Source of the DNA: Tubulanus polymorphus | Taxonomy: Eukaryota > Nemertea > Palaeonemertea > Tubulaniformes > Tubulanidae | DNA: 64,000 nucleotides | Assembly: GCF_964204645.1 (NCBI RefSeq) | Contig: NC_134025.1 | Span: 2,609,001 to 2,673,000 of the forward strand | Direction: 5' to 3' | Part shown: positions 10,462-40,730 of the stretch, one piece after another | Layout of the letters: each line of letters opens with the position of its first letter | Position numbering within the stretch: position 1 is the first letter of the stretch | The notes under the pieces: model-generated | Databases searched by the model: none | Told to the model about the DNA's origin: nothing | Seen by the model: only the letters and a program-made list of their open reading frames with translations | Translations under genes and position numbers: made by a program

Positions 10462-13400
10462 TTGATACTAGAACAAGATCTTATTTGAGAACTGTGAAAC
10501 TGGATCCCGAAGTCAAACTATGACCGTATTTGTGTCTTACCGACTCCATGATGTTTATGTGACGCTGTTTTGATCATGATCTGATCAATATTTAATGCAT
10601 TTATGATCTCCAAACCTAAGAGATATTTATTTAATGAATCTTTTTGTACTCTGTAATTACCTCTTTGTTTTTTGCGTAATATGATTATATCTTAAAACAT
10701 TTTCTATCATGTAAAGTTAATTTCAATGTATTGTGTATCGTGTAGTTAACTTGTCATCATGATTTTGTGAAAATACAATTTTTACTTTTTCCAATGATTC
10801 TGTTCTTATGTCCTTTGTCTGCATGTTTCACATACTCTCTGATGGATTTATGCTCAGCAACAGCTTTAACCTCAGAACTTAGTTGATACACCTTTCACCA
10901 TATATGACTATTTCGTCCACTCGACCAATTCCTAAACCCATGGAACTCCAAAACAAAATAAAACCACTACAGTAATTTATAATTTTCATATTTTATTGCT
11001 GATATTAAGGATTCAACAGTACTGAGAATCATCGAAAAACAGTAGAATTTCAATTCAACATATGCAAATCAATTCCGAATTCTTCCAACACGTGGAACCA
11101 AGGAAATTTATACCGTAATCATTATCTCTACATTTCATCAGCACATGTTAATAAACATCATTGATGAAATAAGTATTGAAAATGTAAGCGAATTATTGAC
11201 AACCGAATATTTCAAAAGGGCACTTAAAACCCCATGTGTAATACTGTACATATATAAAGATAGCCCACAGGATGGATCTACAAGAAACGAATTTGTGCAC
11301 ACTCCTAAAATAGCTTTGTTTTAGTCGACAATATTTTGTAACCAATTGGCTAATAAGCATCAACATCTTAGATGTTTGAATCCAATAAACCATACCCAGT
11401 CCCTCGGATCCAGCCTGGGAATCGAGCTTTATCACAAGCTCTACTTATATCAAAATATATCTTAGTTATTTTGTGCATGCACGTATGGACATTTAATGGA
11501 CGAGGTTTGGACACTTTATCAAAAGAAAATCTGAAATTGTACATTATGGCAGGATTAAACATGAGAACCTTTCCGTACTAAATATGAATCCAAAGCAATG
11601 ATTATTTCAGCTATCTCTGTAATAGAATGCAGCCCTTCTCATCGACTTTCCAAAAGATGATTCTATACGAAGACCGAAATTCCAATTATTCGGAACAAAT
11701 TCAAAATTTAAGTACTAAAAGCTTATAATTACGAAATTGTTCTAGCGCTGATATTACATTTAGATTGAAAATCATGTGTTTTTAAGAAAAAATGACTGTT
11801 CTGACTTGACCAGTAAAATCTGATGCAATTATATCGTAAACTGAATGAAGAAGCGTTTCAAAGATGAGATTAATACATTTAAAGTGAACGAAGCCTGGAA
11901 TTGCAATCAATACTTACAATTCCAATAACTGATTTACATGTAAAAATAGTAATCAATGATGATTATAATAATAATATTAATGATAATAAATTTCCTATGT
12001 TCTACATGAAGTTAGATGAGAAGTTTAGTCAGAATTTAATAACAAAGTTAAGCCGTGAACTTATCAACGTGTGCGCTCAGGTTCAGCAAGATTTAACACA
12101 GACAAATTTGGTCGATTTTCCTACGGTAAACAAATGATCCGATATTAATATTTCAGGATTCAATTAATGTTCTACGTAGCCGATACACGCAAACTGAGAG
12201 TGATAAATATAATCTAACATGTTTAATCTAAACGTCCTTTTGAGCTGAATTTTAAGTCACGACAAGTCCTGAATTACATGTAATTAACCTATACAGTTCA
12301 TATGATACATATTTATATATAGATATATATATATATATCTATACATATATATCACAAAATCATATCATTATGAAATATTTTCAGCTTCTACTTATATAAA
12401 ACATCCATTATATTGTAGCTTTAAGTTAACGGCCTTGGCGCAAGGATTGCGACTTGAAATATTACTTATATAAAACAATACCATATGACACTTCATTAGT
12501 TTTCTGATCCCTATCATATTTCTCCCTACAACTTGGAGCAGCTTCTCGTTTTAATTCTATAAACCGTATAATAATCGTATTTATTCATATATTCATTCGG
12601 ATAAACTCAAATATAACGTCAGGTGGGCTAATCACAGCGATAAGATAGGTCCTTCTGAAAAGTGGTCCGCTCGGTTCCAGGTTAAATACCTCTAATGATA
12701 ATAATAACCCTGGTTAAAACTACACAAAAATAAATTCTTGAATTACGTAAATCATAATGAAAATAACATAACTGTTGCATTGCTTCGAGAAATTCAAGTA
12801 TCTTGGGGGGTGATTTTTCACCATTTGATATTAAACGACAAATCATTCGGATGGTCAGCTCTATATAGCACAGCACCTTGTGTGAATCTAAACACATTTC
12901 ATAAACCGTTCTATGAACATTCTACATAAAAGTCATCGATATCAAGCACCTAATCAATAAATGGAATTATACAAGATGAATCTTACAACCTGAACTAAAC
13001 AATGCAGATAGAAAGATATTCATCAGCATCATAAAAATGGAATGTGATGATTAAGCAGTTTGCGACAATCAATATCAACATTGATTTTAATGAAACTGAA
13101 CTATAATTTGGCAGACTTTAGTTGGATCCCTGTTTTAATCATCCCTAAACGACCTTACGATCAAACCGACAATCTCTGTACAATCAGATAGACTGACTAA
13201 GTCTCAGTCGCCGTGATCCCACTCTATCGACCGAACACTGGCTATAATACATGTAGTTATAATCAATAATAATAACAATAATAATACATGATATTTCTGG
13301 TAATTATCATTTTGGCCGGATATTGTACCAAACGTATGCCCCCAGTTATACATAACAACTTCATGATGATTAACTAAGAAATGTACCGAAGGAACAGAGA

Positions 13401-13605
13401 TGAATACCGTCAACTATCACTAGGTTGAATCTGATACTTTTTAATCAAACTACGCACTCGTTCAGTGTTCCTTCAGCGACATTTCTCACTCTCTGTAGAA
13501 AGCTTACAAATTTTCGTATTAATACAGTTTATTTATCTTTATTTATTTATATATATGTATGTATAAACCGATTATGTATATATGATATCGCAGATGTTGA
13601 ATGGT
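10462..13605. other. Convergent 3' region of TCEANC2 and ERM
   Basis: No coding exon was seen. Minus-strand AATAAA motifs lie at 13528-13547, just below the ERM stop, giving a short 3' UTR. Another at 10992-10997 would give a 2.6 kb 3' UTR ending close to TCEANC2. An AT dinucleotide tract occupies about 12312-12352. Confidence 0.45.
12312..12352. repeat. AT-rich microsatellite
   Basis: Runs of TATATATA with interspersed GATATA and CTATA, largely self-complementary. Simple repeat in the presumed ERM 3' region. Confidence 0.7.
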
Positions 13606-23652
<10,047 letters not shown>

Positions 23653-32461: not shown

Positions 32462-35400
32462 ATGTCTAGTACAGTGTGTTCTCATTGTAATAGCAGTGAT
32501 ATTGATATCGATCCAGCCCGCGGAGATGCGGTAAATATATATATATTAACGTGAAAGTTTCCTGGGGTGTTCGGATAATTACGGTCGGATAATTCCCCAC
32601 ATTTATTATGCCCCCTCCCACAATTCCTGCCAAATTAATCGGATATTCTTGGCTCCTGTTACTCGGATAGAAAAATGTCCTCATAAAGGTTCCTGTACAG
32701 TGGCAATTTCCATGTGGCGAGTTGTCAATTCTTGGGTGAAATATTAAACGTTATTTCGGGATAACAGGACCATGAATAGCGGGGAGCTGTTGCCCTTCCC
32801 TCTGAAATTTTTGCTAATATTGTTGTTTTGTCCTATAAAAATTCATTGTAGAATCCTTCGCTTGGGACTGACCAAAAGTAAAAAAGGGCCTAACAGTTTT
32901 TGTTAGGGTGTATTAGAAGAATCGTTTTAACATTCAAATGCTAGGTCCGGCCTTGTGGATAATGCAGCAATATTTCACTGTTGTCATCATCGTTGGATTT
33001 TGTATGATTTAAGGTTTGTACTAATTGCGGTTCCGTGTTAGAAGATCAGATTATTGTATCCGAAGTTCAATTTGCCGAAAATGCTTTGGGAGGAGCTTCG
33101 GTCATTGGACAATACGTTCCGAACGAAGGTCAGTATTGCGTAACTAAAACCAGCGACTCTTTACTTTTCTAAAGACGATGTGAAAAAGATATAAAAATTC
33201 TACTATACACTGATACAATGTGATTTATAAGATGATTTTCTAATCGAAAGGCGCTAAAAGCCACAGTTTAGGAACTGGTTTCCATCACGGTTTCGGAAAA
33301 GAGTCGAGAGCTATCACGTTGCAGAACGGCAAAAGGAAAATACAAACGCTCGGAGGTCAATTGAAGTTGAACCAGCATTGTATCGATACGGCGTATAACT
33401 TCTTTAAAATGGCTGTCGGCAAACATTTAACTCGCGGTCGTAAAACTACTCACGTTACGGCTGCTTGTTTGTATCTAGTTTGTCGAACTGAAGGCACTCC
33501 ACGTATCCTTGAAATATCAATAAATACTCCGCAGTCAACAGTGGCAATTGAGGAGTCCGCTTGTTTGCTCAGTTTGTTGTCATTTCCTTCATGTTCTCTA
33601 TAGATATGTTGCTAGATTTCAGTGATATTCTTCAAGTAAGTTCCTCATTATTTTCTCAATGCCGAGTAAGTTTTTTAATCAATGCTGAACTTAACGAAAT
33701 ATTTTTTGTTTGAAGGTGAATGTGTACAGTTTGGGTCGAACTTACCTACAACTATCCCGTGAACTATGTATCAATATTCCGGCTATGGGTAAGTCAGAAT
33801 TATTCTCTTTTATAAACTGTTACGAGAACCAACTATCTGTCTGTCTGTCAGTTAGGGCTTGGAGTAATCATTGTCAAATGATAACTCCAAGGTTAGCGTT
33901 AGGTGAACTTAGTTTTAGACTTAATCATTACCGGTAAGATTTTATAATCGGATGGGCTTAAACCCATTGATTTTGAGGTTTGTGAAACTTAACCACAGAC
34001 ATGCACTGACTAAGTAATGTGAACTCAACTGGGCTTTGATGTGTCCAAAAAAGGTGTCATCATCTAGTTGAATATCTTGTACTAAATGAATCAGAATGAA
34101 AATACAAATTTGAAAAAGGATTGTAAGGTCTTTCATAATACATTTATTAACATCACGAGGTATCAACCAATGTACAATTTGCTGCAAATAACAATATTAA
34201 GTAACCTAACTACATTTATATTACATTGAAATGAATTTGTTCTGAACATGATTTCAAGCATTAGTCGTGCCAGTGTTCTCCATAACGGGTTTTAGAAGGG
34301 CAACCACTCAGTGTCATCTTTACCCAGTTCAAACACCTGGTGCCTTTCTAGTTGAAGACAATATTTACAAGGATAATTACTTCTTTAAAAGTAATGGGTT
34401 TATTTCACTCTAAAGATTGCACCACAATTAAGCTTCATTTTCAATATATTCTGGTAAAAACCCTAAACCCGCGACGAAAAGCTTAGCATTATTTCAGCCT
34501 CCACAAAAATGATCATGAAATGAGACTGGTCATAGGCAATAGGAACCCTACTAAAGAATGAATGTAAGGCCTCTAAAATCCCAGCATATCGAGAACACTG
34601 AATACTAATTAAAAGTTAAATCTCTACTCAAACTGGATTTATTTCGGTCAACAATAGAAAATCAGTTCCGGTATTTGTCCACCTTGTACTCCGGTACCGT
34701 TAGTACTATCCGACGAACACTGAAACTGAAACGTGACTTTTCCGCAAGTCACTTCGGCCATACCTTCCTGACCGAAGTAACTCAACTCAGCACCGTCTAA
34801 AATAGCGCTCGCCGTATAGAAAACATCGGGTTCGATTTGAATAGGATTATCGAATAGAACTTTAAATGTGTTACTCGAACCGTCGGAGAAAAATTTCGTA
34901 TTTCTCGATCCGAGAATGTGTCCGTTCCGTTTGAGTTCGAGTTTCACGGAATATTCGGCGGCGCCGTTACTCGAACCGTACAATCCGTATCCGGCTACGA
35001 ATATTCGCTTATCGACTAGAAACTGAATACTATCGCATCGGCCTCGGTATCGCCATTGATTACTGCGATACGCCGACGATTGAAATCTATGAGTACGTTG
35101 AGGAGGTAGACCTCCTCTCTGTTTAACGGGAAACGGTAACGCCGGTTTTACCGATGCGGTGAAATGTAAGAATATCTCGTTCGTTTCTTGTAATGTTAGT
35201 ATGTCGGATTGAGCGGGTCCGTTCGCGAACTCTTCCAACTCCATCGTCGGCAAACGTATCAAATACAAGCTGCGACCGAGAACTTTTCGCAGATTCGTCG
35301 GATTCGTTTCGATTCCCCGTCTTAAACATTCTACTTCCGACCATCGATACGCCGCGTTGAACAGCGATATTTCCTTCGCGTTCAACGTCTCGCGCGCTAA

Positions 35401-38400
35401 AACGGTTTCGAGCGTTTTATAGTCGATGTCGACGAAGCCGTCCGATCCTAAAGCTTCCTCGGCCTGCGCGTCGATCACTTCCCAACAACGTAACATCAAC
35501 TCGTTCTCTTCGAACAAACAACTCTGACTGAGAAGAACGCAAGCGTTTTTCGCGCTGAGACTTGTTTCCAGGTATTTGACGCACGCTTGAGCCATGTGAG
35601 GTACGATGTACTTCTTTGCGGCGTATAGTGTTGTCAGTACAGTGTCTGGCTCTAGTTCTATTTCATCTGTATACATGTACCTGAAATTATTGCATACAAT
35701 AGTCAATAATTCGTCTGGGGTTAGTTAGACCAGTCTTAGAACGTAGCTAATCTAAAAACCCGTCTTAAGATTTAGGATCACATTTGAACTTGTGTGCAAT
35801 GCAGCCATAATCGAGACTTGAGTCCAAAAGTGGTCTTAAGCCTTAAGACTGATCTAAGAATGTTAGATTGGCTATAGAACTAAGGTATAAAGTCTAAGCC
35901 ATGACTTATGCAACCGACCTCGAGGAATGGTTTCACAATGGAATTACGAAGCAGTTTTCCGAACATACGTAGTTAGTTACCTAAGAAGGTTCAAGAAAGC
36001 CGTAGGTTCCACATCTGGTATTGATATCGCGGAGGTTGTATTGCTAGATAAATCACCATATAACATCGCGTAGAACACAGAACTAGCAGTGGCTAGTACG
36101 TATTTATGAGCTGGTATCCGTCGACAGTCTGGTGGTTGCCCGACTAAGAAATGAATATCTGCCATCAATTCATTATTCAACATCGAAGCATTACGATCTC
36201 TAACAGTGCAAGTACTTGCTTGCCAGTTGTGTTCATTCGTATTCGGTCGTTGATTCGATCTTTTTTGCGGGCTGTACGTAGTTGTGTTAATTACCTCTTG
36301 GTTTCCTTCCTCGTCCGAGTTAAAAGAATTATCTGAAATGGAATTTTTTTTTCTATCCGAATATATGTCACGAAACTATGATTATCTAGCTGATTATCAT
36401 TAGATAGATATAGATTACTCATATACTGTGGGAGTCATACACAGTTTATATACAGTATGATTGTTAGTGAATGAATGAAATAGTTACAATACATGTAGTT
36501 CAAGAATTGAATAATATGATAGTAATAGAACATACCTAACTGATCGGCTGTGAAAGGTTTACGTGTTTGATTCGAGTCTGTATTACAGAATTTAGTATGC
36601 TTGGATGCCATATTGTTATTATTGTACAGCAATCCCACAATGCTGTTCCAGTACTGTTGAGAGAAAGACTAGACAGAAAGGTTATCAAACAGTGCTGACA
36701 TCTGTCGTGCTGAAAATGCATTATTCAGTACACTGAATTCGAATAAGAAAACTACTATAGTTAGAACAAATGTGTAATCGTTTTTATAGTAATAATGATA
36801 AGTCTTATTCTTGTATAGCTCTATTATTTTCGATATGATAAGCTATTGTCTAAGATTGTATCCAGCCAGTTCCTCTCATACGACGAAAACTGCCTTGCAA
36901 CTAGTTTTTTTCTTGGTGAAGGCATTGCAAAAATGCTTCCCTTATGGGTCCTTATATTACTGGAAAGTACTTCATCCTCAAGCAAAAAGTCCTTTTGGGT
37001 CTAAAATTGCCGTAAAAGTCAGTTATCCTGGCATCAACACTGGAAACCCTGTAGTTGTCTCCAGTTACTTTGTCGATATACGCTAAGCTTTAGAACCGGA
37101 AATTTGTGATATGATTAAACTATTATGTGTTCTAAGTTTGTCTTACTTGTTGCATTTTAGACCCGTGTCTGTACATACATCGTTTCGCGCATAAGTTAGA
37201 ATTCGGTGAGAAAACCCACGAAGTCTCGATGGTAGCTTTGAGATTGGTTTCCAGGATGAAAAGAGATTGGATTCATACCGGCCGGCGACCTTCTGGATTG
37301 TGTGGAGCCGGTAATTAAAACTACAGATACAATAATGAGATATTGTTTCATAGGCAAAAGAATGATGGAGAAAATGTATTTATGTATTTTCAGCATTACT
37401 TGTCGCAGCGAGATGGCACGGTTTTAACAGAACATTTAAAGATTTATTACGAATTGTTAAAGTGTGCGAAGCTACCTTACGCAAAAGGTAAATTCTCTAT
37501 TCATTTCTGATTTCGAGTTTTGGCATCGTTTTCCGGTATTCAGATTAGTGACGTATAAATGTTGCAGATTGAATGAATTTGAGGAGACTCCATCGTGTCA
37601 GCTCACGATGGATGAATTTCAGAGGATTGATCTCGAAGAGGAACAGGATCCACCTTCATTTACTCAGGGAAAACGAAAAGCCAAATTAATACAGGTAAGT
37701 GTCGTGTATACATCTCAATGGTCTTATTGATGTGAGAAATTGATGTTTGGGTGAAAGATTGTGAAGAAATCATGAAAATGTGTGAAAATTCGAGAAAATT
37801 ATCTTGTAAAGATATTTTTGTTCCCTTTTTGTGCCATATGGTATATTGATGTGAACATACCTAATTTCATCAATCTGACCGTTGAGAGATTCATATGACT
37901 AATAACGGTGCAGTTTAATTGTTGTTGAATATTGAATAGATGGGAGAGCATGATGAAATGGGAGAAGTCACTCAGGAAATATCTCAGATGCAAAAAGAAA
38001 TAGAAAAAGCACTGGAAGGACCACTTAAAAAGTCGAAAAAATCTAAATTAATTGATTGTAAGTATGCCATTACCTAGATACAAATTTGTTGATATGCTTC
38101 AGGCTTCAAATTGTTGAAAGCTCTAAATTCATCTTCATATCATCATCATAATCGTCTATATTTTCAGCTGCATGTGAAGATTCTCTATTAAATGAAGAAA
38201 GTATATGTAATGATGATTTAGCGCTGTCAGATGATATTTGCCAAAAAACTCAACCAAACGTTGATGAATTATCGGTTACCACTGATGATCTAATTCCAAA
38301 TACAAGTGAACAATTAGCGATTGTTTCTGAATCAAGCGCCGGACAATCTAGTCAAAATTCAACCGCTTCATCGAGTGTCAAATTCGTGCCTTCGGTCCCG

Positions 38401-40730
38401 AAACTTATCGAGGACGTACTCGACGATCGCGATGAAGAAATCAGAAAATTGGAACAAACCGAAATGGATAATATCATAAAATGCGGGAAACCGTTGTGGG
38501 AGAATGTGGCTGATGGTAACTCGGAGGATATCGGGCCTCGTCCTAGTGCCGCTAGTTTAGGATTAACAGAATCTATAGAACAGTGTATGACTGTATCTAA
38601 TCTGGAAGGTGAAAAGTTAACGTCGTCCTTCATGTGCCGTGCGACTGTGGAAAATTTCAGCTAATGTTTTGGTTGTGTTTATATTCAGAGAGTTGTGAAG
38701 AGGGTGGTGAACTAAGTCTTGAAGGAATATCTGATGATGAAATAGACAGAGTAAGTCACAACTATTATCTGCTGTATTATTTGTGGGAGAAACAACTAAA
38801 CGTAACCCGTTTCACGTACCGGTATTACTTTCAGCTGTATATTCTAAGCCCTCCTGAGGTAAAGATTAAAACTGAAGTTTGGATGACTCTGAATGCGGAC
38901 TATTTACGTGAACAGAAAGGTCAGTTTAATTAGCCTTCTATATCAGACTTGTATTAGTTGTCTTCTATCTAAGCATTTCGTTTCGCATCAATTTACAGAG
39001 AAGCAGGAAAGAGAAGCCAAACTCAAAGAAGAAGGCTTACAAAAACCGGAAAAGAAGGTTTGTTATTAAGCATCCATTGTGTCGCATTTGGAATTAGCAA
39101 CATCGCTAATGTCTATTTCAACCTGACTTGAGAGCACTTCGGGTGGCCTAGCTCAGTCAGTTTTAGTAGTACATGCCTGATAAAAGTCTTATTAGAACCA
39201 GAAAAGACAGGCAGCTGACCTAAAATATCGTTTTTTAATCCACTTTAAACTGTATAGAAGGATATCCAAAGAGTCTGCATTGAGAGGGGTTCCTGAGAGA
39301 AAAGAGACTCCATGATTTGAAAGTTTAACAATATGTCTCCATGCCTACTAACTGAAGGGTTGAGGTAGGCATGGAAACATATTGTTAAACTTTCAAATCA
39401 TGGAGTCACTTCTCTTCAATTAACCCCTTTCAATGAAGACTTTTTGGATATCCTTCAATACAGTTTCAAATGGATTAAAAATGATGATTTAGGTCGACTG
39501 CCTGTCCTTTCTGGTGCTATTAAGACCTTTATCAGGTATTTACTACCAAAAATGAGCGAGCTAGGCCACCCAGAATGCTCTCAAGTCAGGTTGAAATAGA
39601 CATTAGTAGTAACGCAGTGTAGTGCACGTGTAAGCGATGTTATGATTTTTCCGTAGAAACGAAAGACGAAAAAGAAACCGATACAAGCAAACACAGCCGG
39701 AGAAGCGATAGAAATGATGTTGGCGGAGAAGAAAATATCGAGTAAAATTAACTACGACGTTTTAAAAGATTTGAATCGTTTATCGGAGAGTAAAACCGTA
39801 GCGGCATCAACTGTAATAGAGAACAACAGTATCGTCATTCCTGCCTCACCTACCCCTAATAAACTATCATTTGAAAGAAGGTAAATCATATCAGACCTAC
39901 AGGGTCCAGTTCCACAGTTCTGAGTTAAGATTTGACCCTGGGTTAAAACATTGAAAATGAACTAACTTTAACTCAGAGTTAACTCTAACTCACAACTGTG
40001 GAACTGGGTCCAGGGTTCTTACAGATCGGGGAAATTTCTCTGAACTGTAAGAACCCGAGTATTTGATCCAATGATGAATTTCCTGAATTCTTCGCATCTT
40101 ATTTTCAGATTCAAACGTACGTCTAGCATATCACATGATATTAAAGCTGAAAATATGGTAAATTACATACATAAGTAAACATTTTCAAAAAGGAATCTGT
40201 CTTACCGGGTATTTATTCTAGATATTCAATATTTTATATTTTCAGTTTGCTTCCCCTGCGAAGCAGATAAAACTCGAACCAGATGTTGTAGTTGAATCAG
40301 GTCCAATCGATCATACAAAAGAAGGTTCGTTAAGGCGATGTATGTTGTACTCTGAATCAGGAATTGAATGGATTTATTCATTTTCAAATTGTTTATTTTA
40401 GATGAAGGCGAATGCGAAGAAGATTATTACGATGAAGATGATGAACATCAGCATGTCAGCGCAGCTCAACTGATGGGCCACACAGGTCAGTTTATGAAAA
40501 GCGGGTGTTATTACTGTCTTTACATACCAAGTTGTTCTTAAGTCAGGACGCAAGCCGTCTTGTTGGAGCGCTGCGCAATAAAAACAAATGGATTATTGTT
40601 AATTATTAGTTTGATTTCACAATTCCATATATTTTCTAAAATTCTTTGATTTTCTATATCAAGTGGAATCGTTTGTTTTTCTCTTACAGAAGATGATATT
40701 GAAGCGTATGAAGAGGATGATTATTACTAA
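32462..40730 (+). CDS. BRF1: TFIIIB 90 kDa subunit, BRF1
   Basis: BRF1 is the TFIIB-like factor that recruits Pol III with TBP and BDP1. Eighteen exons: 32462-32530, 33014-33128, 33251-33502, 33604-33635, 33716-33788, 37161-37310, 37394-37487, 37568-37694, 37940-38057, 38168-38608, 38689-38750, 38835-38919, 38999-39057, 39657-39880, 40109-40157, 40246-40324, 40402-40485, 40690-40730; 717 aa. The zinc ribbon is C6-X2-C9-X15-C25-X2-C28. Two cyclin folds follow ([38 protein letters not shown]). [20 protein letters not shown] and [20 protein letters not shown] form the TBP/BDP1-binding homology II block. The tail is acidic. One 3.37 kb intron (33789-37160) contains a complete antisense gene. Poly(A) signals lie at 40953-40962. 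Confidence 0.95.
34628..34633 (-). promoter_or_regulatory. Candidate BTBD6-like poly(A) signal
   Basis: Minus-strand AATAAA only 15 nt after the stop codon; other candidates lie further downstream, so the true 3' end may be longer. Confidence 0.35.
34648..36611 (-). CDS. BTBD6: BTB/BACK/PHR-domain protein, BTBD6-like
   Basis: A Cullin-3 substrate adaptor family. Three coding exons: 36611-36536, 36332-35981 and 35680-34648; 1461 nt or 486 aa, about the length of human BTBD6. After a low-complexity N-terminus, the BTB domain spans roughly 75-180 ([49 protein letters not shown]). The BACK domain follows ([11 protein letters not shown]-type block at [17 protein letters not shown]). A C-terminal PHR domain has [28 protein letters not shown] and [24 protein letters not shown]3 is the closest alternative, and this may be the single pro-orthologue. 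The whole gene lies inside one BRF1 intron on the opposite strand. Confidence 0.93.
35722..35895. repeat. Dispersed palindromic repeat, copy B
   Basis: Inside the nested BTBD6-like gene's intron. GTTAGATTGGCTATAGAACT and CCTTAAGACTGATCT match copy A at 9955-10045. The left half carries mirrored AGACCAGTCTTAGAAC...TAATCTAAAAACCCGTCTTAAG, giving a foldback shape typical of a MITE. Confidence 0.6.
39107..39605. mobile_element. 495-bp foldback element in BRF1 intron
   Basis: A long imperfect inverted repeat. ATGTCTATTTCAACCTGACT at 39109 is mirrored by AGTCAGGTTGAAATAGACAT ending at 39603. The arms, about 230 nt each with scattered mismatches, meet near 39356 at CATGCCTACTAACTG/TGAGGTAGGCATGG. 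Both ends abut TA (39107-39108, 39604-39605), compatible with a TA target duplication. Near each tip GGTGGCCTAGCTCAGTCAG resembles a tRNA A-box, so two inverted SINE copies are an alternative. No coding potential. Confidence 0.75.
39900..40018. repeat. Small foldback repeat in BRF1 intron
   Basis: GGGTCCAGTTCCACAGTTCT near 39901 is mirrored by CAACTGTGGAACTGGGTCC near 39993. TTAACTC blocks lie between, giving a stem-loop of roughly 115 nt; probably a short MITE. Confidence 0.6.

Follow-up and report, generated by a model that had tools for sequence, protein, structure and literature searches.

In the window, that is, the whole stretch of 64,000 nt of Tubulanus polymorphus DNA analyzed here, the coding region of a BTBD6-type gene lies wholly within one intron of BRF1 and on the opposite strand, the nesting being seen for the coding sequences only. 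The pair can be regarded with good confidence as an ancestral nested antisense arrangement, in which a BTBD3/6-type gene was located in BRF1 before the protostome-deuterostome split and has been retained there since, a linkage of the two genes that is probably older than the divergence of molluscs, worms, and vertebrates. The cause of this retention is less certain than the ancestry. BRF1/BTBD6 is a neat, not unprecedented, addition to a known phenomenon, the very old nested gene pairs.

The host gene BRF1 starts on the + strand with an ATG at 32462, and its exons E1 to E8 form one open frame as far as 37694, with consensus GT-AG junctions, in a window that contains no N. The coding exons comprise (i) E1 to E5 (32462-32530, 33014-33128, 33251-33502, 33604-33635, and 33716-33788) and (ii) E6 to E8 (37161-37310, 37394-37487, and 37568-37694), homologous to the yeast TFIIIB 70 kDa subunit (E 3e-26); the encoded protein displays Pfam matches to the TFIIB zinc ribbon (PF08271, 4e-12) and to the TFIIB cyclin repeats (PF00382, 6e-55, in two stretches). 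Further downstream on the same strand, the BRF1-specific C-terminal domain PF07741 is matched in two exonic stretches, 38835-38921 and 39660-39776; a search of the whole 267.8-Mb genome gave no match to this domain outside the BRF1 locus of the window, and BRF1 therefore appears to be single-copy at the sequence level. The host intron, located between E5 (ending ...CINIPAM) and E6 (starting DPCLY...), spans 33789-37160 (3372 nt), displays GT-AG ends and phase 1, and outsizes the other six BRF1 introns measured (80-483 nt); the exon models thus yield the boundaries and the phase that an earlier note on this DNA had proposed. Between the 3' exons of BRF1, the region 39192-39599 holds two similar reading frames on opposite strands, which suggests an inverted-repeat element.

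The nested gene is encoded on the − strand by three coding exons joined at GT-AG junctions, including (i) exon 1 (36536-36611), which opens with MASKHTK... at the first ATG after an in-frame stop, (ii) exon 2 (35981-36332), where the BTB domain starts, and (iii) exon 3 (34648-35680), which contains the remainder of the BTB domain, the BACK and PHR domains, and the stop codon. The frame comprises 486 amino acids and zero internal stops, and Pfam recognizes BTB, BACK, and PHR in this order, PHR at 2.4e-49. The complete three-exon BTB-PHR gene that the earlier note had described on the opposite strand inside this intron is hence matched to the base. An origin of the gene as a retrocopy was rejected, because the gene has introns.

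On the side of the stop codon, 859 nt (33789-34647) separate the BTBD6-type gene from E5 of BRF1, with − strand AATAAA signals at 34643, 34404, and 34148, whereas on the side of the start codon 549 nt (36612-37160) separate it from E6. If the entire transcript is nested, the latter stretch would have to hold the BTBD6 promoter; its composition is not unusual and it lacks a CpG peak, and a promoter scan of the bacterial type, not applicable here, stayed at chance level. Exon 3 is itself CpG-rich, with an observed/expected ratio of 1.9 and up to 2.4 in 300-nt windows, compared with 0.96 for the whole window and 0.4-0.6 for the flanking parts of the intron. In addition, a short dispersed repeat occupies 33919-34012 of the host intron, near the 3' end of the BTBD6-type gene, with about 40 copies scored genome-wide, mostly 72-85% identical.

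Among solved structures, human BTBD6 (2vkp, E 4e-45) is the best relative of the nested BTB domain, with 72.5% identity over this domain, whereas the nested PHR domain shares just 46% identity with that of human BTBD2. On the other hand, a second BTB-BACK-PHR gene, at 10.147-10.162 Mb of contig C5, carries two PHR pieces that match human BTBD2 at 86% and 77% identity. These comparisons assign the nested gene to the BTBD3/6 type, found once in the genome, with the BTBD1/2-type gene lying separately on contig C5, a classification from pairwise domain identities. A third PHR-bearing locus, at 6.287-6.294 Mb of the same contig, is probably MYCBP2-like, as its repeated PHR pieces indicate. Searches with BTBD6 queries in further genome and viral contigs met no animal DNA and returned a lone 13-residue viral match, attributable to chance.

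The earlier note had placed human BTBD6 within the BRF1 locus, and published hg19 coordinates lend partial support to this overlap: a methylation study assigned chr14:105715658-105715970 to both BRF1 and BTBD6 by coordinate overlap (PMC13115854), and a repeat survey gives chr14:105695251-105707600 as a BRF1 intron (PMC4079513), so that BRF1 runs well past the methylation region. Taken together, these coordinates would put human BTBD6 inside BRF1, on the far side of the exon starting at 105707601. By a count back from human Arg223/Ser226, c.544/c.545 (codon 182) would be the position of the homologous human intron; the human BRF1 exon coordinates and variant positions predicted by the same-intron hypothesis were not found in the literature, a result that is uninformative. 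We take human BRF1 to be a minus-strand gene and BTBD6 a plus-strand gene (14q32.33), and BRF1 exons near 105,707.6 and 105,718 kb presumably flank BTBD6, positions that would fit its location in the same BRF1 intron. We infer the same intron in human, as we do common ancestry and entrapment. The human and Tubulanus loci are alike in the orthologous host, the co-orthologous guest, and the overlap of the guest with the host, and differ in that human introns are far larger, one human BRF1 intron comprising 12,350 nt.

In cattle, gene lists place BRF1 next to BTBD6 in the order NUDT14-BRF1-BTBD6-PACS2, whereas the genes recognized around the pair in the window comprise a kinesin, a VWA gene, and one of the CNOT2 type, which argues that the pair persisted through a change of its surroundings. 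A single PACS gene, in mammals a neighbor of BRF1, was found at 26943384-26946516 of contig C1, the contig that also carries BRF1, 24 Mb distant; this location agrees, if weakly, with an old common chromosome.

The reading that we favor for the persistence of the pair, with some reserve, is passive entrapment in an essential, single-copy host. The BTBD6-type gene would be transcribed independently by Pol II, in the direction opposite to BRF1 and presumably from a promoter of its own within the 549 nt that precede its start codon, and splicing of the BRF1 pre-mRNA would discard the antisense copy of the gene with the intron. With BRF1 essential (TFIIIB) and apparently single-copy, an inversion or translocation separating the two genes would have to break BRF1, and the guest could be freed only by duplication followed by loss; because any separating breakpoint would cut such a host, entrapment explains the retention best. 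Vertebrate BTBD3 functions outside BRF1, so that nesting is unnecessary for the function of the protein. Nevertheless, overlaps that human still shares with insects or nematodes are very few; being trapped is thus no guarantee of persistence, and selection may contribute to some extent.

Shared regulation, the explanation suggested in the earlier note, would have selection keep the nesting through shared cis-elements or mutual regulation, such as antisense transcription or a common chromatin domain, and we consider it unlikely. A single human SNP acts as an eQTL of BTBD6 as well as of BRF1, and one human CpG is associated with both genes, but such co-association is expected of any two genes on the same DNA. 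Against coupling also stand the unremarkable composition of the stretch upstream of the BTBD6 start, the unrelated roles of the two proteins, and the activity of vertebrate BTBD3 away from BRF1. In its favor, the overlaps conserved between human and mouse are enriched in convergent and nested antiparallel ones (PMC2330155). As co-eQTL and co-methylation are what overlapping genes would display anyway, the passive explanation suffices and shared regulation is not upheld.

A more specific version, improbable in our view, is that the BTBD6 promoter fires in both directions, one of its products being an N-truncated BRF1 mRNA. A methionine lies 24 codons into exon E6 of BRF1, equivalent to human Met205, the residue at which a 473-aa human BRF1 isoform presumably starts. 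If true, this promoter would yield a Brf isoform that starts from the E6 methionine, is devoid of the zinc ribbon and the first cyclin repeat, and is conserved between lophotrochozoans and human, which would account for the inseparability of the pair.

As to the age of the nesting, the protostome side of the comparison is secured by the Hox cluster of this genome, located at 5318228-5634756 of contig C6, where ten Hox-type homeodomains are arranged compactly on one strand. They include Lox5 (with KLNGPNG after the homeodomain), two members with IKELN (Lox2/Lox4), and Post2; Post1 was not among the matches in this cluster. We take the Lox5, Lox2/Lox4, and Post2 signatures to mark a lophotrochozoan, and the genome is accordingly that of a protostome. 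Searches for mitochondrial COX1 and for molluscan hemocyanin gave no match. Provided that the human intron is the same, it is highly likely that the BRF1/BTBD6 nesting predates the protostome-deuterostome split. The earlier note had advanced this dating, which is partly supported, by the nesting in this genome, the protostome Hox set, and the human overlap, with the identity of the human intron presumed from exon positions.

The alternative of two separate entries of BTBD6 into BRF1, one in the vertebrate and one in the Tubulanus lineage, is very improbable. Nested genes do arise often, and most overlaps are lineage-specific (PMC2330155); however, the same guest family would have had to enter the same host out of about 20,000 possible ones, with a chance of ~1e-6 in a rough estimate (a few percent nested genes multiplied by 1/20,000 hosts). 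The guest has introns and hence did not arrive as a retrocopy, and its orientation would be opposite to the host in both lineages, taking the human orientation as assumed above. Independent insertion in both lineages being so unlikely, nesting before the split is the best reading, and other lineages may have lost it. No literature on BRF1/BTBD6 nesting or on its deep age was found, although the supplement of PMC2330155 might list the pair, and no paper was found on Drosophila lute/Brf.

Nested antiparallel genes are the most conserved class of overlap in PMC2330155 (Solda 2008), 52% being conserved between human and mouse, and the same study counts only three overlapping clusters common to Ecdysozoa and vertebrates, all of them nested antiparallel, which makes long retention unusual; BRF1/BTBD6 may already figure among its ancient clusters. 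Synapsin/TIMP, the best known of the ancient antisense nestings, is the nearest parallel; its nesting is documented in animals as distant as Nematostella and human (PMC2825198), and it resembles BRF1/BTBD6 in that an opposite-strand guest lies in one intron of a conserved host and in that the guest is found outside the host too after duplication, as for the BTBD3/6 family. The two pairs differ in that synapsin is a neuronal phosphoprotein whereas BRF1 is a general Pol III factor, and in that synapsin/TIMP nesting is documented in many phyla, BRF1/BTBD6 nesting in one lophotrochozoan and human. Similarly, LRRTM genes are protein-coding guests in a conserved intron of alpha-catenin hosts, a nesting whose origin is placed within vertebrate evolution (PMC3933685) and which would hence be younger than that of BRF1/BTBD6.

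Only a handful of overlapping pairs have been traced back to early animals, and BRF1/BTBD6 would be a further one. Its housekeeping Pol III host, devoid of a functional link to the guest, would help to tell passive entrapment from regulatory constraint, and the nesting would offer a clean synteny character for animal phylogeny.

As a positive control, the synapsin/TIMP pair could also be traced in this genome, across an assembly break. TIMP is located at 6822-7109 of contig C3 on the − strand and the downstream synapsin exons at 12350-15290 of the same contig on the + strand, whereas the upstream synapsin exons occupy 16668710-16675022 of contig C8, at the very end of its 16677571 nt. The C8 end and the C3 start share a 40-bp satellite in matching orientation; the break in the assembly therefore probably falls within the host intron of synapsin, and C8 and C3 are probably neighbors. 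This break inside another host gene is what could be said for BRF1/BTBD6 being an artifact of misassembly or a pseudogene taken for a gene, a reading that we hold to be almost certainly wrong given the N-free window, the exons continuous on both sides of the host intron with consensus junctions, the intact 486-aa frame with complete domains, and the recurrence of the arrangement in human. As the parts of synapsin and TIMP stand in nested order across the break, the genome probably keeps this second ancient nesting as well.
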